This document shows positions 14,215 to 29,768 of a stretch of DNA of 30,043 bases, one piece after another. Positions within the stretch are counted from its first letter, which is position 1; every line of letters starts with the position of its first letter. The notes under the pieces were generated by a model that was not told the DNA's origin, made no database searches, and worked only from the letters and a program-made list of their open reading frames with translations. The translations under genes were made by a program, and so were the position numbers. This stretch comes from Cymbomonas tetramitiformis (Eukaryota > Chlorophyta > Pyramimonadophyceae > Pyramimonadales > Pyramimonadaceae). The DNA lies in NCBI GenBank assembly GCA_001247695.2, contig LGRX02009983.1, forward strand, positions 1 through 30,043. Direction: 5' to 3'.

Positions 14215-14540
14215 GGTTCGGTGTGCCAGGGGCACGACGACAGATGCTCGGAAATATGTTTTTGATTGAACGTGCAAAGGTACACAATTCGGATTTTATA
14301 ATATACTGGATCAGGGCCAGATTGAGGTACAAACGATAATTCGGTTCCGAGTTCTGAAGGCTAAACACTTCTCAAGAGCTCCACTTATTCACTCGTCACT
14401 CAGGTTGCAGGGTCAACCACTCGACAGCCGATGTCACACTTCGGCTCAACGTTCAATTCCCGATCCGATCTCATTTCTAATTCCGATTCGTCATTCTCGA
14501 TTCAGATGTTATGCCGACAGACTGACACGATGACTGCTTC

Positions 14541-14870
14541 ACAGTACTGTCATACTACTGTACTGTCATACTGTCATACTGTCATAGCGTCATACTGTCA
14601 TACTGTCATAACCTTGATATCTGATATTCGATTTCATTGTCTTTTCAACCCCGATGCGAATCTGACCATTCTTCGAGGGTCTGACTGAGTTCCACGATGA
14701 CACCCCCCACAGTACTGTCATACTACTATAGTGTCATACTGTCATGCTGTCATAGTGTCATAGTGTCATAGTGTCATACCCCGGACATCTGGTATTCATT
14801 CTCATCGTGATTTCAAGCCCAATTTCACTGTCATCGTGCCAATCCCAGATTACCCCCGATGACACACATA
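14541..14870. repeat. 168-bp tandem duplication containing GTCATA/GTCATACT short repeats
   Basis: Two units start ACAGTACTGTCATACTACT at 14541 and 14709. Each then carries a run of TGTCATAC/TGTCATAG words spaced about 10 bp, an ATCTGATATTC or ATCTGGTATTC block, and ends near GATGACAC. The two units are diverged. The array lies downstream of the gypsy pol and could belong to its 3' LTR or UTR. Confidence 0.75.
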
Positions 14871-14913
14871 CGGACACATAGGCATATCGGCTCACGCTGT
14901 GCCTCCGGGCACA

Positions 14914-14931
14914 ACTCTCCCCCCCTTAGGA
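14914..14931 (-). promoter_or_regulatory. Candidate polypurine tract of the minus-strand gypsy element
   Basis: On the minus strand this reads as AAGGGGGGAGAG-type purine sequence about 170 bp past the pol stop codon, immediately before TGTGCCCGG. That is the order expected for a polypurine tract followed by an LTR beginning with TG. It is unconfirmed because no second LTR is visible for comparison. Confidence 0.35.
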
Positions 14932-15101: not shown

Positions 15102-16781
15102 CTAAAGCGGGTCTTCAGTTTTGCGGAGGCGTAAATGTCGGAAAAGTTGTCGTAGCAGAAGTGCTGGCACGGGATATACACTCGCAGATCGGCCCGCTCC
15201 AGTCTGCTGCGGGTGAGGTCCAAGCTGAGCAGTCTCTGGATGAGCACCGGTTGCCCATCTGCACGCACACGGTGTTGAAGTAGTACAGCGTAGCAGGGGC
15301 GAGGGTGGCGCTGAGTTCGTCCATATGCAGGTGGGCTTCATGTACTGCGTACCGTACATGCAGTAGGTACATACCAGCGGAGGAGGGAGCTGGCGCATCA
15401 TAGGGCGAAGCCGTAGCGCGTTAGGGAAGCGACCTCTGGGGTTTTCCATGAAACAATGTTTCGGCTCCAGGTAGTCAATGATCTGCAATGCTCGTCGTAC
15501 GATTTTGTCAGCCTGGGGAAGGTCAGGGGGTCCACCAGTGGTGCGCGCTTGACTGTACTGCCTGCAGGGGGGACTTGCCCAAACGACATCGAAGAATCCA
15601 GGCGGGTATTGTTTGTAGTTCCATTGCAGGATGTCACACACATGAGTGGGTTGCCAGATATGCCCGGAGTCGAGGGTCACCACTGAAGCAGAGGGAAAGC
15701 AATTTAGGAATTCCCTCTCTACTGAGCCAGTACCGCTGAAAAGTACGAGAATCCTGGGCGTGCGGGTTGCTTTCGTCTGTATCGCCAGCAGCTCTGTCAC
15801 CAGTGCCAACGACCCATCTTCCACGCGCTCTTGGCGTTCCCACGGCAGGGGGGTATCATATTCCATCTGTTCGAGCTGGTCCAGTTCATCGCAGGGATTA
15901 GTGATGAGGTGGGCCAGTGTCATTCCGGCTTGAGCGGAGTGACGACCACGTTGCTCGCGTCGCCGAGTGGCTTCGTCGCGAACTTGCGCTTCCATGTGCA
16001 GTCTCGCTTGCTCGAATTCACGAAGCTGCTGAAGTGGACCTCCGCGTTCAAGTTTGTCACGCGTCCTCCATTGGTCGTGAGCTTTGGAGTAGCCAGTCCA
16101 GCGAACCTTCCACTCTTCCACCTCTTTTCCTCGAACAGACCGCACTCGACGTGCAAGAATGCGCTCAACGTGTGCTTCCTTCTGACCGTCCACTATCACC
16201 TCTTCAGGTACTGCTAGGTGATCGCGTGCGGCGAAAGCATCTTGACCGCTGGTGTACGGTTTGAGGCGATGTTGAGCGAACACGTCGTGAATCCGCCAGT
16301 GAGGAGGAAGGCGTAGGCGGTAGGCTACTGGGGCTCCTCTGTCGGCCTCTGGCATGGTCATCTGTACATCGCTGAAGAAGCGTTCGGTCACAGGGACTGG
16401 TCCATGCCAGCGCTTGGTCAGTTTCCTGCAGATTGAGCGATCCATCACCTTCTCCGTAAGGTGTTTCGCCTCTATCCAGACCAGATCTCCAACAGCATAC
16501 TCCCGCTGCCCGTGCCTGCGATCAAACTGTTCGCGCTGTCGCTGTTGAGCCAGCTCTAACCGCTGTCTGGCGTCCCGCAGCTGCGACGAAAATTTCACGG
16601 CCACTTCGTGTGCGGTGCCTACTCCCCCAGTTCGTCGTCCAGCGGTGGACTGTGCGGCCTCCAGGAAAAGGTCTAACTGCGACAGCGGCGAGAACCCAAA
16701 CACCAGTTCAAATGGCGTGAAGCCAGTAGATTCACTCCTGGAGTCATTGGTCGCGAACTCCACGTTAGTGGTGAACAGATC
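15102..16781 (-). CDS. pol: Gypsy pol, second part: integrase C-terminus, chromodomain, C5-type methyltransferase
   Basis: This is in frame with the first part, directly after the TGA; the first ATG is at 16763. Residues below count from it. EFATNDSRSESTGFTPFELV (2-21) is the classic end of the integrase core. The C-terminal domain follows, with RRHGQREYAVGDLVWI and RHGP-like WHGPVPV. A chromodomain lies at about 188-250 (AHVERILARR, then EWKVRWTGYSKAHDQW). A linker of about 85 residues follows, then a C5-cytosine-type methyltransferase at about 335-545, ending at the natural TAG/TGA-type stop near 15102. Chromodomains direct integration to marked chromatin. The second methyltransferase as a C-terminal extension is highly unusual. 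If TGA is not read through, this part is not translated. Confidence 0.88.
   Translation of the reverse strand, partial: DLFTTNVEFATNDSRSESTGFTPFELVFGFSPLSQLDLFLEAAQSTAGRRTGGVGTAHEVAVKFSSQLRDARQRLELAQQRQREQFDRRHGQREYAVGDLVWIEAKHLTEKVMDRSICRKLTKRWHGPVPVTERFFSDVQMTMPEADRGAPVAYRLRLPPHWRIHDVFAQHRLKPYTSGQDAFAARDHLAVPEEVIVDGQKEAHVERILARRVRSVRGKEVEEWKVRWTGYSKAHDQWRTRDKLERGGPLQQLREFEQARLHMEAQVRDEATRRREQRGRHSAQAGMTLAHLITNPCDELDQLEQMEYDTPLPWERQERVEDGSLALVTELLAIQTKATRTPRILVLFSGTGSVEREFLNCFPSASVVTLDSGHIWQPTHVCDILQWNYKQYPPGFFDVVWASPPCRQYSQARTTGGPPDLPQADKIVRRALQIIDYLEPKHCFMENPRGRFPNALRLRPMMRQLPPPLVCTYCMYGTQYMKPTCIWTNSAPPSPLLRCTTSTPCACRWATGAHPETAQLGPHPQQTGAGRSASVYPVPALLLRQLFRHLRLRKTEDPL
15129..15761 (-). other. 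C5-cytosine methyltransferase-like domain at the end of gypsy pol
   Basis: Motif I (SAM binding) is RILVLFSGTGSVE. Motif IV is VVWASPPCRQYSQA, with the PC catalytic Cys dipeptide. Motif VI is FMENPRG, with the ENV-type Glu in an ENP variant. A cysteine-rich CTYCMYGTQYMKPTCIWTN segment and a YPVPALLLRQLF C-terminus follow. The target-recognition region is very short compared with Dnmt1 or bacterial Dcm enzymes. The combination SPPC...YS plus ENP is a divergent branch of the C5 methyltransferase superfamily. Key residues look intact; the base modified and the site recognised are unknown. I recall reports of C5 methyltransferases captured by LTR retrotransposons of some algae and dinoflagellates, which supports the reading. 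Confidence 0.8.
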
Positions 16782-16784
16782 TCA
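16782..16784 (-). other. In-frame TGA stop splitting the gypsy polyprotein
   Basis: The frame reads ...GTG GAG GAC TGA GAT CTG... and continues open for 559 codons on the same frame. Related integrases typically have Trp before this Asp, so a TGG to TGA transition is the simple explanation. Trp elsewhere in the frame is coded by TGG, giving no reason to think TGA is sense in this genome. Confidence 0.9.
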
Positions 16785-19700
16785 GTCCTCCACATTGGCG
16801 TCTACAAAGGACCTGAGCATGTCCTCAATAACCCTGTTGCTGTGTTCCGCCTGGCCGTCAGACCGAGGGTTGTACGGCGTGGTACAAGCCACCTTCACAC
16901 CCATCAGTCTCATGAGTTCCTGCCAGAAAGCATCTTGAAACCGTGGGTCACGATCAGAGACAATCTTCATAGGCGCGCCATGTAAGCGCCACACCGAGTC
17001 AAAGTAGATTCTGGCCACCACAGCTGCGGAGCTGTCGCCGAAGTTCATCGGCACAACGTGGACCATCTTCGTCAGCTTGCAAGTGAAGGCCACGAAAGCG
17101 TCATTGCCTCTCTCTGATACTGGCAGGCCGGTGACGAAGTCCACCGCAACATCCTGCCATGGCCTGTTCGGGATGCTGTGAGGGTTTAGCAACCCATCCG
17201 GGTAAGTCCCTCGCGGCCTCACTGATTGGCACACTGCGCAGGATGCAACCCAGGTGCCCACATCTTCCGCGGCACCACGCCAATAGAAGCGCCGCAGCAC
17301 CCTCTCTAGAGTCTTGTCTCGCCCAGTATGACCCGAGGACAATGACTCATGAGCATGACGAATCACTACTTCTCGAAGTGGAGAGTCCTCCCCCAGCACC
17401 AACTGATATCTCCCTGCTGCGGTCCTCCAAACCACTTCACCCACTAGCCTGAAGTCCTGTAGGCATTGGTGTGGTGCCGCCTTCACTTTCTCTTTTAGTG
17501 AACGAAGTGTCCCCTCTCGGGTGTACTCCGCTTTCAACGCACGCAGGAACTTTGAGTCCGACTGCTGGGAGGCTGCGTCTCTGAAGTCTGCTGCCTCACC
17601 TGTCCTTATCACAGCGGGGGCTGTTCGCGGATGCCTCACGCGTGCTGGCTGTGGTTTGGCGGAAGGGGCGTGTACTATCAGAACAGGCCAGCGAAGGTCG
17701 TAAGCCTTCCCATCTGGGTTCTCGAAGAACTGATTGGGCTCGCCCTTATCATCGTGAGTAGGGATGACCTCCACAATCTGCATATTGGCCTTTCTGAAAA
17801 GTTTGCGCCACGCGGGGAGCTTGGACTGGTGATCTGGTAGAACGAAGACTGCTGAGGTGTTTTCTGGGTCTGCCTTCCATTCTGCGATATACTTGTTCAA
17901 GATCGCCTCCACAGTAATGTGCTTGGAGTTGTATGGAGGGTTACACCAAACCCGAAGGCCCCTCCATTTCTCTGAAAGGCAGTCCGTCCAGAATCTATCC
18001 GCCTGTCTGTTGCGACCGCCAAAGTCACAACAGGCGTCCACATCGAAGGGTCCAAATTTCTCGACGTACTTCGAGGAGTACTCTGCTCGGACACGCCAAT
18101 TCTGTGAGTCCTCTGGGGGAGCCTGCCGTTTTTGTGGGTGAAGGACCGGGGATGGAGCTGACTGCTGGGGCGCCTGCTGCGGGGTTGGTGAGCTCGCTGG
18201 CACCTTCTCAGTGGGCGCCTCCGATGCGTCAGCTCGTGATATAGGCGTTCGCGTCTTCGGTGACGCCAACTGTGGAGGCGCTGGGGTCGTAGAGGCTTTC
18301 CCAGCGCGTGACATACTCCTCGTTATCCTTATCTGGGGTGGGGCTCTGTCAGGGGGTTCGTGAGGAGCTTCTGTCGGCTTCGCGCTATCAGCTTCAGGCC
18401 AGTCAGGCATGTCGAAGTCGAGTTGATCCTCCTTCATTCCCTTGTAGAGCTTCGGGTTAACGAGAGCGATGGTCTCCCCCATGTCCATGGCCTGTTCCGC
18501 CACGGAGAGGGTTTCCACTGCTGAGAGCCAACAGTCAATAGTCTGGGCCCAGTGGGGATGAGCTGCGGGTGGTGAGCTGGAGAAGCATTCAGATTCCAGC
18601 GTTGCCAGGGGGTCTTTCGGCAGATCTGAGGTGGGGTCAATCACTCCTGCCTCCTTCAACCCCTCGCGCACGTCCTTGTCTTTGAAGTCGGGTCTTCTGG
18701 ACAGGGCGTCCGGTACCAGCAGCAGCGCTCCCTTGATGTACTCCATTCTCGGGACTCCCACCTCCACTAGATCCATGTACCAGCGTGCCTGTCTGCGGCT
18801 AAGCTCTCTGCCAGGTTCCATTAGCCATTCAAGGGGGCGGTGATCACCCTGGATGCGGAAGTTGGTGAAGATGAGGTAATGCCGCCAGGTGACGGTGGTA
18901 CAGTGGTGTAGAGCACCTAGCTCACGCTCGCCGGTGTGATAATTCTGCTCGGCGGCTGAGAGCTGGCGGCTCTCGTATGCTATCACGCGCAGCCCAAGAC
19001 CATCTCCATTGTCTTGCATCAGTACTCCCCCAAGAGCGATGCCGCTAGCATCCGTCTGCACCACGAAAGGTGCTGTGCCGTCTGCAGCACCCTTAATGTT
19101 GGGCAAGGCGAGCACTGGCGCTGAGGTGAGGGCCTTCTTCAGCTCCTCGAAGGCCCACTGCTGCATGGGACCCCACTCCCAGGGTACGTCCGACTTGGTC
19201 AACCGGGTGAGGGGCTGAGCGATCTCGGAGAAGCAGTGAATGAACCTGCGGTAGTACCCCGCCAGGCCCAAGAACTGCCTGACGTGGGTAACCGTTTCCA
19301 GCTCGGGCCAGTCCCTCACTGCAGCCACCTTGTCGTGTTGGGGTCTGCAGCCATCCGCGGAGATACAGTGGCCAAGGAACCGCAAGGATTTCTTCAACAG
19401 TTGGCACTTGGACCTCTTGAGGAAGACGCCCTTCTCCCTGCATGCCAGGAGCAGTTGCTTGACGTGTTCGTAGTGCTCTGCGGCGGTGTTGCTGAAGACG
19501 ACCACATCATCGATGAAGATCCGGACAAATGGGAGATGGCCCAAGGCCCGCTGCATCCGTCGCTGGTACTGAGACGGTGAATTCTGCAGCCCCTGCGGCA
19601 TGACCAACCACTCATATGACCCCATCTGGGTGGTGAAGGCGGTCTTCTCGACATCTCCTGGTGCCATCGGTACTTGCCAGAAGCCATCCACCGCGTCGAA

Positions 19701-21200
19701 CGAAGAGAAGAACTTCGCACCCTGCATCTCGTCGAACATCATCTGGATGTCTGGAAGAGGATACTTGTCCTTAACTGTCTGGCGGTTGAGGAGACGGTAA
19801 TCGATCACCAGACGCAGCTCCTTGGGGTTCCCCGGTTTGGGGACCATCAGACAGGGAGCTGCATAAGGGCTGGAAGAGGGTCGGATGTAGCCCTCGGACA
19901 TCAGGGTCTCCACGCGTTCTCGAAGTTGGCGGAGTTCCTCTGCAGACTTCTTGTAGATGCGCTGGCAGGGCGGCCCCTTCTTGCTCAGCTCAGGGTCGAG
20001 GTTAATGTTGGCTTCATCTTGGGGGTCATGTCTGAGTCCATCGATGTTCGGTAGGGCAGTCGTCATCTCCTTTTTGTACTCCTCACCCCAGAAGTCCTGA
20101 AACTTGAGGGTCCACTCAGGGCTCACTTCTGCATCTTCGGTATCCGCAGCGGGTTCGGCGTTCTCAGAGTCGATAGCCGTGGCTGCAAAGGCAGAAGCAG
20201 TATCATCGGGGGACTTCTCGGCCATCATGAGCCAGGCGGGTTGTATCTCCGGGTCGGCATTGCCGCGTAGCTTCTGCGTCTCCGCGTACACCAGGTACTT
20301 CTTCAGCTGGGCAGGGGTTAGGAACACCTCGTCCACCAATCCCGCGCAGGCCGTGCCCTTCGGAGACCTGTCTCCAGATGCTTTCCCAGGAGAACAGCCT
20401 GTGATGGTGACGCGATCCCCAATCTTACCACTGCGGGACTTCCTGAGGAAGGAGACGGAGCCGTTCCCTTCATAGCCCAGAGTGACAGGAGAGTGACTGC
20501 GCAACCACCTTCCGCCAAGGATAACATCCACCTGTATGCCCAGTGGTAGGATCCGGAGGGCAAGGGCGTTCTCCGTATAGGTGCCCGTGGTGGTGTGCGT
20601 GTTAAACTTGGCGTACGCGGTGGCGCCAGTGATCTTCGCAGATCCATCCGCCAAGGTGACTCGCATCTCGGAGCCGGCTCGTGTCGTGAGGCCACATCGC
20701 TTAGCGCTCTGCTCCGAGATGAAGTTGTCAGAGGCCCCCGAGTCGATCAGCACCTTGACCGTGTGCCCTCTGAGGGTTGCATAGAATACCAGCAGTAGCG
20801 GTCCTTCTTCATCATGTGCCGCTGCGAGGGTACCCTCGATGTCGGTCTTCCACTGAACTCCCCCATCTGTGCGTATGCTTTTGCACTTGAGGTTGGGGAG
20901 GAGGTTGTCCGAGGCCTCGCGGCATTCTTCCAATGTCTGCCTACACGCGGCGTAGAACTCCTCATCCAGCAAATCAACATCCTCAGTTGGGTGACTGACG
21001 AGGTTGTCTACACTCGCCGTCAGCAGGGTGCCCGCTGAGATGCATTCGCTCGAGGTGGGGCTGACATGAGTGGTGTCGCTGGTGGTAGGGCTCACATGGG
21101 TGATGTTACTGGTAGTAGGGCTCACATGGGTAGTGCCGCTGGTGGTAGGGCTTACATGCCCTACAGATCTGCAACCCTTGGGAAAGCTTTCCATAGGCAT
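16782..21200 (-). CDS. pol: Gypsy pol, first part: protease, RT, RNase H, N6A-methyltransferase, integrase to TGA
   Basis: This part has 1472 codons to the TGA. Residues 15-50 are 10-residue HVSPTTS-type repeats. The aspartic protease has LIDSGASDNF at 151-160. RT spans about 425-610, with VIDYRLLN and FIDDVVVFS (catalytic DD near 564-565). RNase H spans about 705-835, with QTDAS, YHTGERELGAL and DALSRRP. A Pro/Ala/Ser-rich linker covers about 836-1035. The Dam-like methyltransferase spans about 1036-1180. The integrase zinc finger has H1284, H1291, C1321 and C1324; its catalytic core has D1354 (VDFVTG), D1416 (SDRDPRF) and E1452, an exact DD35E spacing. The frame stops right after FVDANVED, where gypsy integrases usually have Trp. 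The upstream frame closes with a stop within the hairpin array, so ATG 21200 is the first available start but may not be the native one; no gag is attached. Confidence 0.93.
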   Translation of the reverse strand: MPMESFPKGCRSVGHVSPTTSGTTHVSPTTSNITHVSPTTSDTTHVSPTSSECISAGTLLTASVDNLVSHPTEDVDLLDEEFYAACRQTLEECREASDNLLPNLKCKSIRTDGGVQWKTDIEGTLAAAHDEEGPLLLVFYATLRGHTVKVLIDSGASDNFISEQSAKRCGLTTRAGSEMRVTLADGSAKITGATAYAKFNTHTTTGTYTENALALRILPLGIQVDVILGGRWLRSHSPVTLGYEGNGSVSFLRKSRSGKIGDRVTITGCSPGKASGDRSPKGTACAGLVDEVFLTPAQLKKYLVYAETQKLRGNADPEIQPAWLMMAEKSPDDTASAFAATAIDSENAEPAADTEDAEVSPEWTLKFQDFWGEEYKKEMTTALPNIDGLRHDPQDEANINLDPELSKKGPPCQRIYKKSAEELRQLRERVETLMSEGYIRPSSSPYAAPCLMVPKPGNPKELRLVIDYRLLNRQTVKDKYPLPDIQMMFDEMQGAKFFSSFDAVDGFWQVPMAPGDVEKTAFTTQMGSYEWLVMPQGLQNSPSQYQRRMQRALGHLPFVRIFIDDVVVFSNTAAEHYEHVKQLLLACREKGVFLKRSKCQLLKKSLRFLGHCISADGCRPQHDKVAAVRDWPELETVTHVRQFLGLAGYYRRFIHCFSEIAQPLTRLTKSDVPWEWGPMQQWAFEELKKALTSAPVLALPNIKGAADGTAPFVVQTDASGIALGGVLMQDNGDGLGLRVIAYESRQLSAAEQNYHTGERELGALHHCTTVTWRHYLIFTNFRIQGDHRPLEWLMEPGRELSRRQARWYMDLVEVGVPRMEYIKGALLLVPDALSRRPDFKDKDVREGLKEAGVIDPTSDLPKDPLATLESECFSSSPPAAHPHWAQTIDCWLSAVETLSVAEQAMDMGETIALVNPKLYKGMKEDQLDFDMPDWPEADSAKPTEAPHEPPDRAPPQIRITRSMSRAGKASTTPAPPQLASPKTRTPISRADASEAPTEKVPASSPTPQQAPQQSAPSPVLHPQKRQAPPEDSQNWRVRAEYSSKYVEKFGPFDVDACCDFGGRNRQADRFWTDCLSEKWRGLRVWCNPPYNSKHITVEAILNKYIAEWKADPENTSAVFVLPDHQSKLPAWRKLFRKANMQIVEVIPTHDDKGEPNQFFENPDGKAYDLRWPVLIVHAPSAKPQPARVRHPRTAPAVIRTGEAADFRDAASQQSDSKFLRALKAEYTREGTLRSLKEKVKAAPHQCLQDFRLVGEVVWRTAAGRYQLVLGEDSPLREVVIRHAHESLSSGHTGRDKTLERVLRRFYWRGAAEDVGTWVASCAVCQSVRPRGTYPDGLLNPHSIPNRPWQDVAVDFVTGLPVSERGNDAFVAFTCKLTKMVHVVPMNFGDSSAAVVARIYFDSVWRLHGAPMKIVSDRDPRFQDAFWQELMRLMGVKVACTTPYNPRSDGQAEHSNRVIEDMLRSFVDANVED
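17661..18095 (-). other. Dam-like DNA N6-adenine methyltransferase domain inside gypsy pol
   Basis: About 145 residues (1036-1180 of the pol ORF) resemble the phage-type DNA N6-adenine methyltransferase family. The order is a YSSKYVEKFGPFDVDACCDF start, then NRQADRFW, a KWRGLRVWCNPPY block with the catalytic NPPY (1087-1090), and a VFVLPDHQSKLPAWRKLF helix-strand segment. The NPPY tetrapeptide and the preceding DVDACC are the key residues of this family and both are intact. The domain is in frame between RNase H and integrase, set off by a Pro/Ala-rich linker upstream and a charged linker downstream. Activity is inferred, not shown. A Dam-like domain is known from DIRS-type retrotransposons, but there it sits in a different architecture. 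Confidence 0.85.
21049..21160. repeat. 30-bp tandem repeat at the 5' end of gypsy pol
   Basis: Three full units (21061-21090, 21091-21120 and 21121-21150) and partial ones on each side have the form CTCACATGGGTGATGTTACT plus ten bases. In the minus-strand frame they encode the decapeptide pattern HVSPTTSxxT, a Ser/Thr-rich segment upstream of the protease. Confidence 0.9.
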
Positions 21201-22118
21201 GGAAACGGGTGAAAACCCTATGGAAAAGCCCTATGGAAAAGGGAAAATGGATACTGGAGGTTATCTCGAAAACAAAAATTTTGAGTTTCCATCCCTATAC
21301 TCACCCTTGGGAAGGTTTTCATTATTTTCCAGGGCATTCCATAGGGTGTTTGTGCTTTCCATAGGGTTTTCCAAGGCATTCCATAGGGATGATTGTGGCG
21401 TCCATACCTATGGAACGTTTTCCATAGGGATGGAAGGAATCGTATGGAAAATATCGTATGGAAAACCCTATGGAAACCCAATGGAAAGTCCTGGAATATC
21501 AAGCGCTTTCCGTACCTATGTCATCCCTATAGCCTTCCTATGGAAAGCCGTATGGAAAACCCTGTGGAAAAACACACGGATCTGTTCCATCCCTATGATA
21601 ACCCTATGCTGGTCCTATGGAACCTAATAGGTCATACCTATGGAAATCTTTTCCCCAGGCATGGTACCCCTTGGGAAACTTGTTTCCATACGGACGGTGT
21701 ACCTATGGAAGCGAATTCCATAGGCGTAGTATCCCTTGGGAAGCAATCTTCCATACGGTCGATATACCTATGGAACATTTTCCACAGGCATGGTATCCCC
21801 TGGGAAAGATCTTTCCATACGGACATTATGCGTACGGAAGACGGGCCCATACACTTAGCGTCCCTTGGGAAATAGGTTTCCATACGGCCGACATACTTAT
21901 GGAAAGGTTTTCCACTGGGTGGCTCACCTTTGGGAAAGATTGTTCCATAGGATGGCTATACCTATGGAAACACAATTCCATACGGGCTGTATACTTATGG
22001 AAAGGTATTCCATACGGATATTATACGTATGATTCCGTTAACAGCATCAGGAGTATACCTATGGAAACGCTTTCCGTAGGGTGACCCGCCCTATGGAATT
22101 CATATTCCATACGGTTAT
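21180..22118. repeat. TATGGAA/TTCCATA hairpin-rich tandem array, ~64-bp period on its right half
   Basis: The heptamers TATGGAA and TTCCATA, and close variants, occur dozens of times in roughly 940 bp, often as facing pairs a few bases apart that can fold into small hairpins (for example CTATGGAAACACAATTCCATA near 21962). From about 21640 to 22110 the pattern TACCTATGGAA...TTCCATACGG repeats with a period near 64 bp, with a TCCCTTGGGAAA block in the middle. Open frames on both strands are by-products of the repetition. It lies between the gypsy pol start and the gag-only element. Confidence 0.85.
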
Positions 22119-22120
22119 TA

Positions 22121-22363
22121 TGCTGGACTTCGGGTTTAGGCTTAGTTATTATGGGCTCTGACTAGCCCCTAGCCTGACCCTGCTTCCGTCTCGTGTCCGT
22201 GACATCCTAGCACTGTACTGTACAGTAGTACAGTACAGGAGTACAGTCATCGTTTCACTGTCTGGGTTTCCGAGAGCATAAAGCTTCGGCCAGACACAAG
22301 TTATATGATGATCAGTTTGTTTCCCCGCCAGCTTAGCCGGACAGCGTATCTGTCTTCCTCGCA
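22121..22363 (+). repeat. 5' LTR of the gag-only element
   Basis: This 243-bp LTR begins with TG and ends with CA. It contains a palindromic GTACTGTACAGTAGTACAGT cluster near 22215-22245, and GAGAGCATAAAGC further on. Confidence 0.9.
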
Positions 22364-22376
22364 GGTTATGGCCCGC
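22364..22376 (+). promoter_or_regulatory. Primer binding site matching the initiator tRNA-Met anticodon loop
   Basis: GGTTATGGCCCGC directly follows the 5' LTR. GGTTATGGGCCC is the complement of the anticodon stem-loop of eukaryotic initiator tRNA-Met, which Copia elements use as a half-tRNA primer. The match is good but lacks one G in the run, so it is probable rather than certain. It suggests a Copia-type helper element. Confidence 0.65.
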
Positions 22377-22798
22377 ACCGGCTTTCCGGTGATTCTGATG
22401 ATGGCACAGCGCCTTGCTGTTGCCATGTTCGGCTAAGTAGGACGTAGGAGGGGTTGAGCGCCCACTTGGGCGGTGGTGTATCATTCTCGCGGTATGGCCT
22501 TTTGACATGGCGGTGATGGCGGCACACGTTGTGCTCGCCTTCGCTGCGCAGGAGATCGGTTTGTGACGGATTGTTTTTATTTTACGGCAGTATCGTCGCA
22601 GCGAGAGTTGATTTGCATCGTGCGCCACTGGCCCTGGCGAGGACGCTCCACCCGTTGTGCATTTTGGCCGCTCTCATTTTCCGCTCACGACCTGTGAATC
22701 TCGATCTGTTGTGCTGAGGCTTCTACGGGTTATCTGGCCGCCGTGACAATTTTGTACCACCACCCTTGCTTAGCTCAACCTTCCGCTGTCTCTCTATC

Positions 22799-24969
22799 AT
22801 GGTTACCACAGCAAATAGAATGACGCGGTCACGCGTCCGTAGATTAGAGACGATTTTTGATGATGTGGGTGCGCAGCACGCTGCGACACTACACACCCCG
22901 CAGCTGCCAGCTCCGTCCACCGCAGCTGCGAGGGAGCTCCTCGACAAATGTCAACAGCTTGCTCGCGACAATTTTGACAGGAAGGTTGCAAAAATCGTTG
23001 CCACGAAAATTCTCGGAGAGAAATCGGACCGCTTCGCTGGTACGGAGTCCGACGCAGTCGACATTTTTTCGCAAATCATGCATGAGCTCCGGACACAGTT
23101 TCTTCTGCAGTCGCAGGCGCTTGCTCCCCTCTTTGACCTGACTGACATGACTGTTGCGGCTAGGCATGAGGGCAACGAGTTGCTGCTCTCGGCTCTGACG
23201 TTTCTGGCTCGCCCTGGCTCGCCTGCTCGTGACTGGCTTGAGGCCTCTGGGACGTTCCTGGAGATGGCAAGCGCGCTGCCCTTGAGGTGGTGCGCATGCT
23301 CCAGGAACGCTCAGAACCCTTTGACTCTTTTGAGTCGCTGCTGGCGGTTCGCATCCCCAGCAGCGAAGATCCTGACCGTGACATCCGTGAGTTCAATGGC
23401 CTGTTGCGGGACGTTCAGCGTTCCCACAACTTGCCAGAGGACGCGGTGAAGCGGCAGTTTCTCAAGGCTCTCGGCAATGCGGCTCTGTACCGTGACTTGG
23501 CTAATTCCTTGGCTCGAGCTGACCAGCGGCAGGGCGTGTCTCTTCTGACCATTCAGGCTCGTGTGCGGGAGCAGTTCCGCCACGGCCTGAAAGTCTCTGG
23601 CACCCCTATTTCGGCTCTGTCATTCGGCGATGGCGCGTCTGACCTGGCTGCGGCGTTGTCCAGTCTGCAGAAGCAGCTGGAGCGCATGCAACAGGACATT
23701 CGTGACCTAAAGCGGCAGAAGCGGGAAGGGCCTCCGCCTGCGGGCAAGCACCTTACCCGCTCTGCTGCTAAGCATCATCGTGCTGGTGTTAAGCCACTTG
23801 GCACCGCTCCTCCTGTCTCGTTTGACAAGAAGAGTGGTGCCTTCGTGCCCCACTGCAAGAATGCGGTGTGTGCACAAAGTGGTTTGAAGCACTGGCATGC
23901 TGAATGCCCCAACGGCGGTCTTCACTCTGCCCACTATTGTAGTGCGGTTGAAGACTACGAGGCTGACTGCTTGGCTGTTCGTTTCCAGCGGTTCTATGAC
24001 GCTGGGGATGCACATGCCTTCGAGTCGCTCTGCGCGATGGAGGGTCGCCCGGAGGTGTGCGAGCTGTCGGCGCATTCTTTTGTGACGGCTGAGCCCACGT
24101 CTCTGCGGCACTTTCAGGATGCGGCGGCTTCCGCTCGGGATGCGGCGGCTGACGATGACGGCGTGGCTCACTTTCCTCTAGCCACATTCCACTCGGATGC
24201 ACGGGGTTCGATTCCGCCACCGCCTGCGGTTCGGGATCCCTCTGCACTCGTGGCTGGTGGTGTGCCTACGGCTCATGACCCACCAGTGGCTGTCCCTGGC
24301 TCTCTCGGCTTGCCTGGTTCTGTCCCATCGCTCCAGCTTGGCGACTCTGCACCGGCTCCGCTGTTTGCTGGCATGACGATTGAGGCTTCTGACATTGGCT
24401 CTGAAATCTCTGACAACGACCAAGGCTCTGACAATGACTCTGACGGCGGGCAGCAAGTGGCTTTTGACTCCTTCGGCACTCTTGAGCATGACTCTGACAG
24501 GGGGGCATCGCCACTAGCAGCTCCGATGTACCGTCCACGGGCGCCGCCGAGTTTTCTCCGGTGTGCGTTAATGTCCTCGATGCTCTGTTGTTCTCTACTG
24601 GCCAGTGCTACGGCATCTCTGGTTGCCGTGGGCGGTGGTGACAGGGGCCTGGTTGAGCCCGGAGTCACCGTCCATCGGTCCACTGGAGGTATCTTTGCTT
24701 CGGATCCGCCACTTGGCTCTCTGGACATCCGTGATTGGCCGCCTGACGATCGAGTTCTTTCATCTCTTTCTTCGATGTTCAAACCGCCATGGGAATCTGC
24801 TTGTATGAGTTCTTCACTTGATTTACTTTCTGCTGTGGAACCGCCTTGCCCACTTGGGCCTGGTGGTGCTCGATTTCAACGAGACAGTCTGCAATTCACT
24901 TCGGGATTACACTGTATTTACATCCCGACCGCTGAACTCAGCTCTGCTGACCAGCTTCAAAGTGGCTGA
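22799..24969 (+). CDS. gag: Gag-like protein of the gag-only element, one frameshift
   Basis: The likely start is ATG 22799 (MVTTANRMTRSRVRR). The first frame runs to the region 23242-23290, where the reading continues in the next frame (DGKRAALEVVRMLQERSEPF) to the stop at 24969. Both frames are open across 23242-23449, so either a net one-base indel or programmed frameshifting could be involved. The helical N-terminal half looks like a capsid domain. A coiled-coil follows (LQKQLERMQQDIRDLKRQKR). A CKNAVC...GLKHWHAEC cluster near 23850-23905 looks like a variant zinc knuckle. Then come an acidic Asp/Ser-rich stretch near 24385-24450 and a hydrophobic segment around 24570-24630. No polymerase or integrase motif is found. 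About 720 residues are encoded in all. The C-terminal third is not recognisable as any known domain. Confidence 0.7.
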
Positions 24970-25155
24970 GTTTCTGGTCAATCATCCTGGCAGCTTGATT
25001 AGCTTTAGCCCAGTAGTGGGATGACCGGGTCAAGACCCCGGCACCCAGCTAGAAGTGATCGGTTTCCACCGAGTTGCACGTAGGTGTTTGTTTATTATCA
25101 CGTGGCTGTATTATGCTGTACCTGCCTTGCTAGGTAGTCACACCCACGGGTGGTG

Positions 25156-25398
25156 TGCTGGACTTCGGGTTTAGGCTTAGTTATTATGAGCTCTGACTAG
25201 CCCCTAGCCTGACCCTGCTTCCGTCTCGTGTCCGTGACATCCTAGCACTGTACAGTACAGTAGTACAGTACAGTAGTACAGTCATCGTTTCACTGTCTGG
25301 GTTTCCGAGAGCATAAAGCTTCGGCCAGACACAAGTTATATGATTATCAGTTTGTCTCCTAGCAAGCTTAGCCGGACAGCGTATCTGTCTTCCTCGCA
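25156..25398 (+). repeat. 3' LTR of the gag-only element
   Basis: This is the 243-bp partner of 22121-22363, preceded by the weak purine run ACGGGTGGTG. Differences from the 5' copy include AGCTC for GGCTC early on and TCTCCTAGCAAG for TTTCCCCGCCAG near the end, so the insertion is not brand new or the ends have different origins. Confidence 0.9.
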
Positions 25399-27203: not shown

Positions 27204-27340
27204 ATTTTGTAGCCAGCTACAAAATGGGCCAACCCGGCAGCTTTTGTAGCTATAGCTACAAAACGGGCCACCCCGGCAGCTTTTGTAGCTAAGCTACAAA
27301 CCCGGGTAGCTACAAAAATGGTAGGGGGTAGCTACAAAAA
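27204..27340. repeat. GTAGCTACAAAA palindrome array
   Basis: A perfect 10-bp inverted repeat, ATTTTGTAGC-CA-GCTACAAAAT, lies at 27204-27225. A second, TTTTGTAGC-TATA-GCTACAAAA, lies at 27242-27263, and a third related one at 27281-27300. They are spaced about 38 bp apart by GGGCCA-CCCGGCAG spacers. Two more GTAGCTACAAAAA copies follow at 27306 and 27328. This could be the terminal structure of a DNA transposon; it lies directly upstream of the transposase frame. Confidence 0.85.
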
Positions 27341-27919
27341 CGTCGTGTTACCCAGCTTTGCTTGACGCGGGTATTATGGACCCTAATACCAGGCGTATTC
27401 TGGATCCAAGGCGTGTGCTGAATCGTGACGAAACCCCTCAGTTCATCTCCTTCGACACGCAGAGGGGCAACAACGTCAGGAAGGTGGCAGGTCGGAAAGG
27501 AAAGTCTGCAGCAGACGCGAAGAAAGAGAACCGCGAGAGCTTCACTGTCGACATGGTCATGGGCCTAGACGGATTTCTGTATGGCCTTCACGTTCTCGTT
27601 GCACGTAGCACGCTCACGAAGGGGCTTACACCCGAGATCCTTGAGGATACCTTCACGAACGAGATCCGGGAGGGGGAGAAGATCAGCACGTACGGTCTTA
27701 TCACCTTGAACGAGTGTGGTGTACAAACCGAAGTTTCCTTGGAAGAGCGTTACAAGGTTTTGGTTAAGGAGCTCGAGCATAGGGGTGTCCCCTTACCTGT
27801 CGTCGAACTCACTGGCAACCACGCTTCACGGTATGGGGAGATGGTGATGATAACTGCTGAAGGTGCAGGTATCCGGCAGTTCTCCGAGAAGCCCAACTCC
27901 TCGGGCTTTTTGCAGGCTT

Positions 27920-28159
27920 TGCTGGATATTAACATATTATACCGTGAGGGTAATAATATACCAAGCGGACAGAGGGTCAATGCAAGTCGGAACGCTGTAA
28001 GGCAAGGCTACGTACTCGGAATATTATGTTATTAGAAGGGGAGAGACATACGGACGGGAGAGCTAAATAGCATGTGAACTGTTTGTCACGGCTGGACACC
28101 GAGTCTGATTACGGATATGACAGGTGACCATAATGACAGTCACCGTGTCATTTCCAGCA
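27920..28159 (+). repeat. Left LTR of the TRIM-like element
   Basis: This 240-bp LTR differs from the right copy by an 8-bp insertion near its start, a small change around 28005-28015, and several substitutions. It holds ATTATACCGTGAGGGTAATAAT (imperfect palindrome) and GACAGTCACCGTGTCATTTCC. Confidence 0.92.
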
Positions 28160-29539: not shown

Positions 29540-29768
29540 TGCTGGATATTATACCGTGCGGGTAATAATATACCAAGCGGACAGAGGGTCAATACAGGTC
29601 GGAACGCCGTAACGGACTACATACTCGGAACATTATGTTATTAGAAGGGGAGAGACATACGGACTGGAGAGCTAAATAGCATGTGAATTGTTTGTCACGG
29701 CTGGACACCGAGTCTGATTACGGATATGACAGGTGACCATAATGACAGTCACTGTGTCATTTCCAACA
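29540..29768 (+). repeat. Right LTR of the TRIM-like element
   Basis: This is the 229-bp partner of 27920-28159. The short sequence before it (AAAGTGGGACCATAACC) is only a weak polypurine tract. Confidence 0.92.

Follow-up and report, generated by a model that had tools for sequence, protein, structure and literature searches.

The window analyzed here, the 30,043-nucleotide contig LGRX02009983.1 (positions 1 to 30,043, forward strand) of the green alga Cymbomonas tetramitiformis (assembly GCA_001247695.2), contains on its minus strand a decayed copy of a Ty3/gypsy retrotransposon of the chromodomain lineage, whose polyprotein carries both a Dam-type (N6-adenine) and a C5-type (cytosine) methyltransferase domain. 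Our analysis confirmed that a gypsy-type family with this pair of domains exists in Cymbomonas and in environmental DNA, and is not a chimera of one copy. On balance we favor the prediction that the element uses the two domains to methylate adenine and cytosine in its own DNA copies. What the sequences show is the domain order, an open relative, many relatives with both domains, a largely congruent descent and the kept catalytic residues. Retroelements with a single methyltransferase have already been published; in the open-licence literature we found none with both predicted enzymes.

Two predicted methyltransferase domains in a gypsy-type polyprotein

An earlier note on this DNA, made from the sequence alone, had described a single minus-strand frame broken by one nonsense codon, and the open reading frames (ORFs) agree with it: ORF1 (16785–21227, open to 21230) and ORF2 (15105–16781) share a frame and are divided by one stop, at 16782–16784. 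In Pfam searches run on each ORF separately (ORF1, 1481 amino acids (aa); ORF2 as 15105–16778, 558 aa), every domain named in that note, from the protease to the C5 enzyme, was matched, the integrase core (rve) below its cut-off. The match of the integrase zinc-binding domain (H2C2) to ORF1 is strong although rve falls short, and the integrase region is 99.1% identical to that of P0002, an open relative (relatives are given P numbers). The Ty3/gypsy pol order of protease, reverse transcriptase (RT), RNase H and DDE integrase, followed by a chromodomain, all seen with Pfam, gives the features of a chromovirus. Membership of the DIRS group was rejected, because DDE integrase domains are present and no tyrosine recombinase was matched in the window ORFs by Pfam at E up to 1.

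Profile searches placed the Dam-type domain in methyltransferase families, namely PF05869 (E 5.4e-7, 29.9 bits against a cut-off of 28.1) and phrog_111 of PHROGs, "DNA methyltransferase" (E 6.9e-11). The NCBIfam model phage_N6A_met gave a sub-threshold match (2.5e-4), and a PDB sequence search with the Dam piece matched no methyltransferase. The signature NPPY noted earlier is present, and NPP[YF] is kept in 40 of 46 aligned retroelement Dam domains, including that of the window copy (rows spanning less than 60% of the domain profile were excluded from this count and from the C5 motif counts below). The motif also occurs in 70 of the 72 Dam frames of fetched loci, nearly all phage but including locus L100 (see below), a count for which most loci had been found via patterns holding part of the same motif. 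In a tree built from 31 of the 46 retroelement rows, L100 and 56 phage-locus rows, and not including the Dam sequences of DIRS, the retroelement Dam domains form one clade against the phage-locus rows (Shimodaira-Hasegawa-like approximate likelihood ratio test, SH-aLRT, 99).

The C5-type domain was likewise placed in methyltransferase families, barely above the cut-off by PF00145 DNA_methylase on ORF2 (E 1e-4, 22.3 bits against 22) and clearly by phrog_757, "DNA methyltransferase" (E 1.1e-15); the NCBIfam dcm model remained sub-threshold (E 0.1). It is compact (about 218 residues by our custom profile) and stands at the natural end of the polyprotein. According to Foldseek its structure model (pLDDT 85, pTM 0.83) has the fold of DNA C5 methyltransferases, the best matches being M.HaeIII (E 1.2e-7), DNMT3B and M.HhaI, with TM-scores by query length of about 0.45–0.6. 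The SPPC and ENP residues of the earlier note are there as well. PPC corresponds to motif IV and ENP to motif VI of C5 methyltransferases; they are kept in 35/35 and 34/35 aligned domains, respectively, many of which are just about 45–50% identical to the C5 domain of P0002. Dnmt3 enzymes have ENV at motif VI, where the window copy has ENP; a sequence search of solved structures listed DNMT2 and DNMT1 but not DNMT3, whereas the fold search lists DNMT3. In a search covering proteins of about domain length, in which 5828 of 7999 scored candidates passed, the best 120 include many compact proteins of about 195–222 aa. By its sequence the domain resembles a compact prokaryote- or phage-type enzyme. 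In a tree with 27 of the 35 rows from retroelements and 69 of the 116 others (130 minus near-duplicates), retroelement C5 sequences intermingle with "free-standing" ones (so judged solely by a length of at most 222 aa); a single retroelement clade was not recovered, and it was not rejected (approximately unbiased test, p-AU 0.326). Chance or misreading was rejected, given the curated profiles that both methyltransferase domains match and the many relatives of each.

Relatives with both domains and their descent

A search with the Dam region returned 27 long proteins; querying with P0002's C5 region yielded 33, P0002 among them, of which 24 were new. Custom profiles found both domains in 37 of the resulting 51 relatives; of the others, 10 have only Dam and four only C5. 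These relatives were selected by Dam or C5 similarity, so 37/51 is not a rate in nature. The order seen in the window, in which Dam separates RNase H from integrase and C5 closes the polyprotein, recurs in 33 of the 37. In 19, every one of the eight domains from the protease through C5 is present, though not always in full. The earlier note had allowed for a chimera confined to this copy; we rejected it because other close copies carry both domains. The six closest relatives (P0001–P0005 and P0029) all have Dam and C5, with a complete C5 in P0001 and P0002. In the Dam region, identity to the three closest CYMTET proteins (P0003, P0004, P0005) is 90–95%.

Full-length elements lacking one of the two domains were seen solely among distant relatives. 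Dam without C5 was found in P0007, P0009, P0019–P0023 and P0025–P0027. In seven of these (P0007, P0009, P0020, P0021, P0023, P0025, P0026) at most 41 residues follow the last detected domain; six of the seven stop short of, or close to, the point at which C5 would stand in the window's order; the seventh, P0025, is ordered differently. The corresponding tails are 89 residues in P0022, 120 in P0019 and 262 in P0027. C5 without Dam was found in P0043, P0047, P0048 and P0050. In P0047, a Cymbomonas gene model, part of such a C5 domain is present (57% identity, covering 37% of the query), alongside Pfam numbers that we take to be ankyrin-type; this is possibly an insertion remnant or a gene-model fusion.

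Four relatives combine the two domains differently: C5 lies ahead of the protease and Dam at the end in P0045 and P0046; C5 and then Dam both stand at the end in P0044; and in P0049 Dam is at the front and C5 between RNase H and integrase, with an extra, degenerate-looking C5 piece. PHROGs support C5 in all four; Dam is clear in P0049 only and weak in the other three. The Pfam Dam scores are 33.6 bits for P0049, 24.9 for P0045 and 22.7 for P0044 (cut-off 28.1); the Dam domain of P0046 has no Pfam listing and was found by phrog_111 (E 0.0021) and the custom profile only. Sub-threshold matches to Tudor-like (P0043, P0046) and NUDIX (P0045) domains were noted in three relatives that all have C5 in front of the protease.

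The pair was also found directly in DNA. Locus L100 lies on NHEN01000032.1, a contig filed under the metagenome-assembled genome (MAG) Verrucomicrobiaceae bacterium TMED86. Its open frame of 1325 codons, with the start cut by the locus end, encodes RNase H, Dam, integrase, SH3, chromodomain and C5, and is 63% identical to P0038. A gypsy pol with both methyltransferase domains makes it very likely that this contig is eukaryotic, probably a contamination of the MAG. An open frame of 1158 codons downstream has no Pfam family above cut-off. Scans of viral contigs, with the two ORFs as single queries, found no relative.

Path distances in FastTree trees of RT, RNase H and integrase together, of Dam and of C5 are correlated at 0.952, 0.894 and 0.885; none of 9999 permutations reached such values, in a test that ignores relatedness. 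Most main groups recur with high support in the IQ-TREE trees, and a Cymbomonas-like group is present in all three. P0037, P0038, P0039 and P0042 group together in the C5 and Dam trees, and are not a single clade in the pol tree. With its 136 columns, the Dam tree is less resolved and leaves P0036, P0040 and P0041 ungrouped. Long branches (P0042, P0044, P0045, P0046, P0049, P0050 and others) make the deep joins unsure. A single pol clade of the window-order elements with P0026 and P0027 was not rejected (p-AU 0.404). The large agreement of the three trees argues that both domains were inherited with the element, probably accompanying pol from the ancestor of the main group onwards, if not from earlier.

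Predicted role of the two domains and competing explanations

The domain order suggests that Dam would act on complementary DNA (cDNA) together with RT and RNase H, and C5 at the insertion together with integrase and chromodomain. The protease would cut the polyprotein; RT and RNase H would produce cDNA, which the Dam domain just downstream would methylate; integrase, SH3, chromodomain and C5 would remain together in the integration complex, where C5 could mark cytosines of the incoming copy at a site that the chromodomain has picked in chromatin. Such marks might guard the cDNA against attack by the host, or determine the chromatin state of the fresh insertion.

Several observations weigh against self-methylation by this lineage. 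The window copy has an internal stop and no gag, and in four of its six closest relatives (P0003, P0004, P0005, P0029) C5 is partial, the remainder exiting the frame or the gene model. The Dam motif is broken in 6/46 rows (P0030, P0031, P0039, P0042, P0044, P0045), so one mark may be dispensable. P0027 is the opposite case, with NPPY retained in Dam and a C-terminus (residues about 1730–1950) that by eye looks like a C5 relic without PPC or ENP; no C5 profile matched it. At middle distances Dam conservation (0.47, 0.53) exceeds that of the Dam-integrase spacer (0.42, 0.48) modestly, and the best Foldseek hit of the Dam model (E 0.37) is not significant. The pairing of Dam with RT and of C5 with integrase is not a rule, as P0045 and P0046 carry the enzymes at swapped ends. 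The observed/expected CpG ratio of pol is 0.78 and those of the flanks are 0.84 and 0.89, which is no CpG-loss signature; CpG decay as a sign of 5-methylcytosine (5mC) gave no clear signal.

The strongest competitor, which we nevertheless regard as rather unlikely, is that only C5 acts on DNA, and that the Dam-type domain binds nucleic acid or N6-methylates adenosine in the element's RNA. The nearest solved fold of this domain, by a Foldseek match that is not significant, is indeed the cap-adenosine enzyme PCIF1/CAPAM, but PF05869 lies above its cut-off and NPP[YF] persists both in the retroelement domains and in the mostly phage Dam frames. Less probable still, in our opinion, is action on host or viral DNA, by which the enzymes would loosen silencing via host methylation or aid the host against DNA viruses. 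A role of this kind is the hypothesis of Morozov et al. for transposon methylases (PMC6338049); Cymbomonas has many endogenous viral elements (PMC10675990), and Burns et al. 2015 described three of its scaffolds with more than 10,000x coverage and with chromodomain, RNase H and cytosine methyltransferase regions (PMC5741210). In the window's order, however, both domains lie inside pol, near RT and integrase, and track pol through its phylogeny, for which reason action on the element's own DNA fits best.

We find it very improbable that the domains are neutral passengers, two phage-type genes taken up in a single capture and carried unneeded. The six degenerate Dam motifs and the degenerate-looking C5 pieces of P0027 and P0049 (its first copy), judged by eye, would agree with this; the near-invariant PPC and ENP of C5 domains so diverged, the long open frames of P0002 and L100, and the retention of the pair in differently ordered elements all speak against it. 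An assembly or gene-model chimera of unrelated methyltransferase genes and a gypsy element, brought to mind by fused-looking CYMTET gene models (P0029, 3665 aa; P0051, 4110 aa), has next to no probability and is refuted by independent copies, with the same joins on separate metagenome contigs of several sources and in the DNA of L100.

Returning to methylation of the element's own DNA, we tentatively extend it, with somewhat less than even confidence, to an old and diverse lineage of chromodomain retrotransposons that would write N6-methyladenine (6mA) and 5mC on its own DNA as a mobile system of two marks equipped with a chromatin reader, and that would have kept or regained the pair of writers through domain rearrangements. 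The scaffolds of Burns et al. (PMC5741210) possibly belong to this lineage; if so, and if the proposal is true, it may be a main source of DNA methylation in the Cymbomonas genome. Retrotransposons with a single methyltransferase posed the question of whether elements methylate their own copies, and why. A polyprotein that combines a chromatin reader with two different predicted DNA writers, in a lineage some of whose natural members have lost one or the other catalytic motif, makes this question testable, and copies with a broken Dam or a broken C5 are ready comparisons for 6mA and 5mC on young insertions. The 2023 Cymbomonas assembly used nanopore reads (BioProject PRJNA286761), and its raw sequence data are deposited (PMC10675990).

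The window copy, its surroundings and comparison with known systems

P0002 (2492 aa; Joint Genome Institute metagenome, contig of 12,615 bases, cluster of 31 member sequences) is open throughout and has all domains of the window copy, which is 97.6% identical to it across residues 477–2492. Its upstream part is unmatched in this copy, where the match stops at 21158 and CCTATGGAAA-type repeats follow; the gag side is therefore missing, and the window copy is 5'-truncated, decayed and very likely inactive. No gag profile was matched in residues 1–585 of P0002 at E up to 0.1. Repeats rich in CCTATGGAAA span 21158–22080 and include a 65-bp family (D2, 21669–22012); by eye, motifs like it can be followed from about 21190. 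The extent of 15102..21200 given in the earlier note is right at the C5 end, which is natural, and needs correction elsewhere: the match with P0002 ends short of 21200, and a probable 3' long terminal repeat (LTR) lies outside. The second LTR of the element was not found within the window. The coordinates are collected in the table.

Features of the retroelement copy in the window (HMM, hidden Markov model)
Feature	Position	Strand	Basis
Aspartic protease	20511..20780	-	PF13650 Asp_protease_2, E 6.2e-11; ORF1 residues 150–239
Reverse transcriptase	19368..19844	-	PF00078 RVT_1, E 1.4e-31; ORF1 residues 462–620
RNase H	18765..19175	-	PF17919, E 2.5e-25, and PF17917 RT_RNaseH, E 3.9e-27; jointly ORF1 residues 685–821
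Dam-type N6-adenine methyltransferase domain (predicted)	17739..18143	-	PF05869, ORF1 residues 1037–1108; extent 1029–1163 from custom HMM
NPPY of Dam-type domain	about 17931–17942	-	
Integrase zinc-binding domain H2C2	17211..17384	-	PF17921, E 3.5e-17
Integrase core (rve)	16866..17165	-	PF00665, E 1.6e-5, 25.5 bits, under gathering cut-off of 32.6
Nonsense codon dividing the polyprotein	16782..16784	-	ORF table and direct reading; P0002 open there
Integrase C-terminal SH3 region (Tf2-1-like)	16215..16598	-	PF24626, E 2.9e-9, best stretch ORF2 residues 149–175; extent from custom HMM
Chromodomain	16008..16172	-	PF00385, E 2.7e-7; ORF2 residues 203–257
Compact C5-cytosine methyltransferase domain (predicted)	15144..15797	-	PF00145, phrog_757, structure model
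C5 motifs SPPC; ENP	about 15564–15575; about 15438–15446	-	
Stop, natural polyprotein end	15102..15104	-	C-terminus same as in P0002
Probable polypurine tract	14914..14929	-	Minus strand CTAAGGGGGGGAGAGT; suggested by sequence reading
Probable 3' LTR, about 692 bp, ends TGTGCC...GGCACA	14222..14913	-	Putative; adjoins polypurine tract
Junction, then CCTATGGAAA-type repeats in place of gag side	21158..22110	.	P0002 match ends at 21158

On the plus strand, 22111–25398 is a 3.3-kb element with two 253-nt direct repeats that are 95% alike, and with gag-like ORFs (22718–23449 and 23242–24969) that match parts of P0029 outside pol at 27–34%; pol was not seen between the repeats. It may be a gag-only, non-autonomous LTR element, possibly served by the dual-methyltransferase family. 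Two further repeat blocks (27934–28159 and 29546–29768), about 1.61 kb apart, are 94–96% alike; the first overlaps the end of ORF 27325–28035, for which Pfam gave nothing at E up to 1.

The earlier note knew of no gypsy element with both kinds of methyltransferase, and we found no retroelement with both enzymes in the open-licence literature, the scope of this comparison (subscription journals and Repbase lie outside it). Morozov et al. mention DAM- and DCM-encoding Ty3/Gypsy and DIRS elements in general terms, and in the passages cited name none with both (PMC6338049). Dam-like domains in DIRS, as the earlier note stated, are on record: the elements of Muszewska et al. 2013 resemble ours in having PF05869 in pol with RT and RNase H, but have a tyrosine recombinase and neither DDE integrase nor aspartic protease (PMC3783388), whereas the window lineage has protease, DDE integrase, chromodomain and an additional C5 enzyme. 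Its mention of C5 enzymes in algal or dinoflagellate LTR elements holds for the gypsy element of the charophyte Klebsormidium, but the Symbiodinium ones are LINE (long interspersed nuclear element) and DIRS elements; the DIRS and gypsy enzymes belong to Dnmt3 (PMC5890265). SymbioLINE-Dnmt and SymbioDIRS-Dnmt3 share with the window lineage a retrotransposon-borne C5 methyltransferase in an alga, and differ in element class and in that no adenine enzyme is described in the same element in the passages cited (PMC5890265). In an Ectocarpus Sola transposon, a gene with a ParB-like and a methyltransferase domain is predicted to make N4-methylcytosine or N6-methyladenine (PMC12477816), and an orchid Ty3/gypsy element with an AlkB-type m6A (N6-methyladenosine) RNA demethylase (PMC9289625) likewise acquired a nucleic-acid modifying enzyme, which is however an RNA eraser and not a DNA writer.

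Within Cymbomonas, the Chlamyvir-like chromoviruses have a Ty3/gypsy pol with a chromodomain, but the main text of the 2023 genome paper contains no word starting with "methyl" (PMC10675990); for the high-copy scaffolds of Burns et al. only the cytosine enzyme is named in the passages cited, with neither an adenine enzyme nor an element described (PMC5741210). Also closely comparable is KnitGypsy-Dnmt3 (de Mendoza et al. 2018), from the green-lineage alga Klebsormidium nitens, an LTR gypsy element whose Pol ORF includes a C5 enzyme with conserved key residues; it has one described methyltransferase, of the eukaryotic Dnmt3 class, and repeats said to be DIRS-like (PMC5890265), whereas the window lineage has a compact, phage- or prokaryote-like C5 domain placed after the chromodomain and, in addition, the Dam-type domain.
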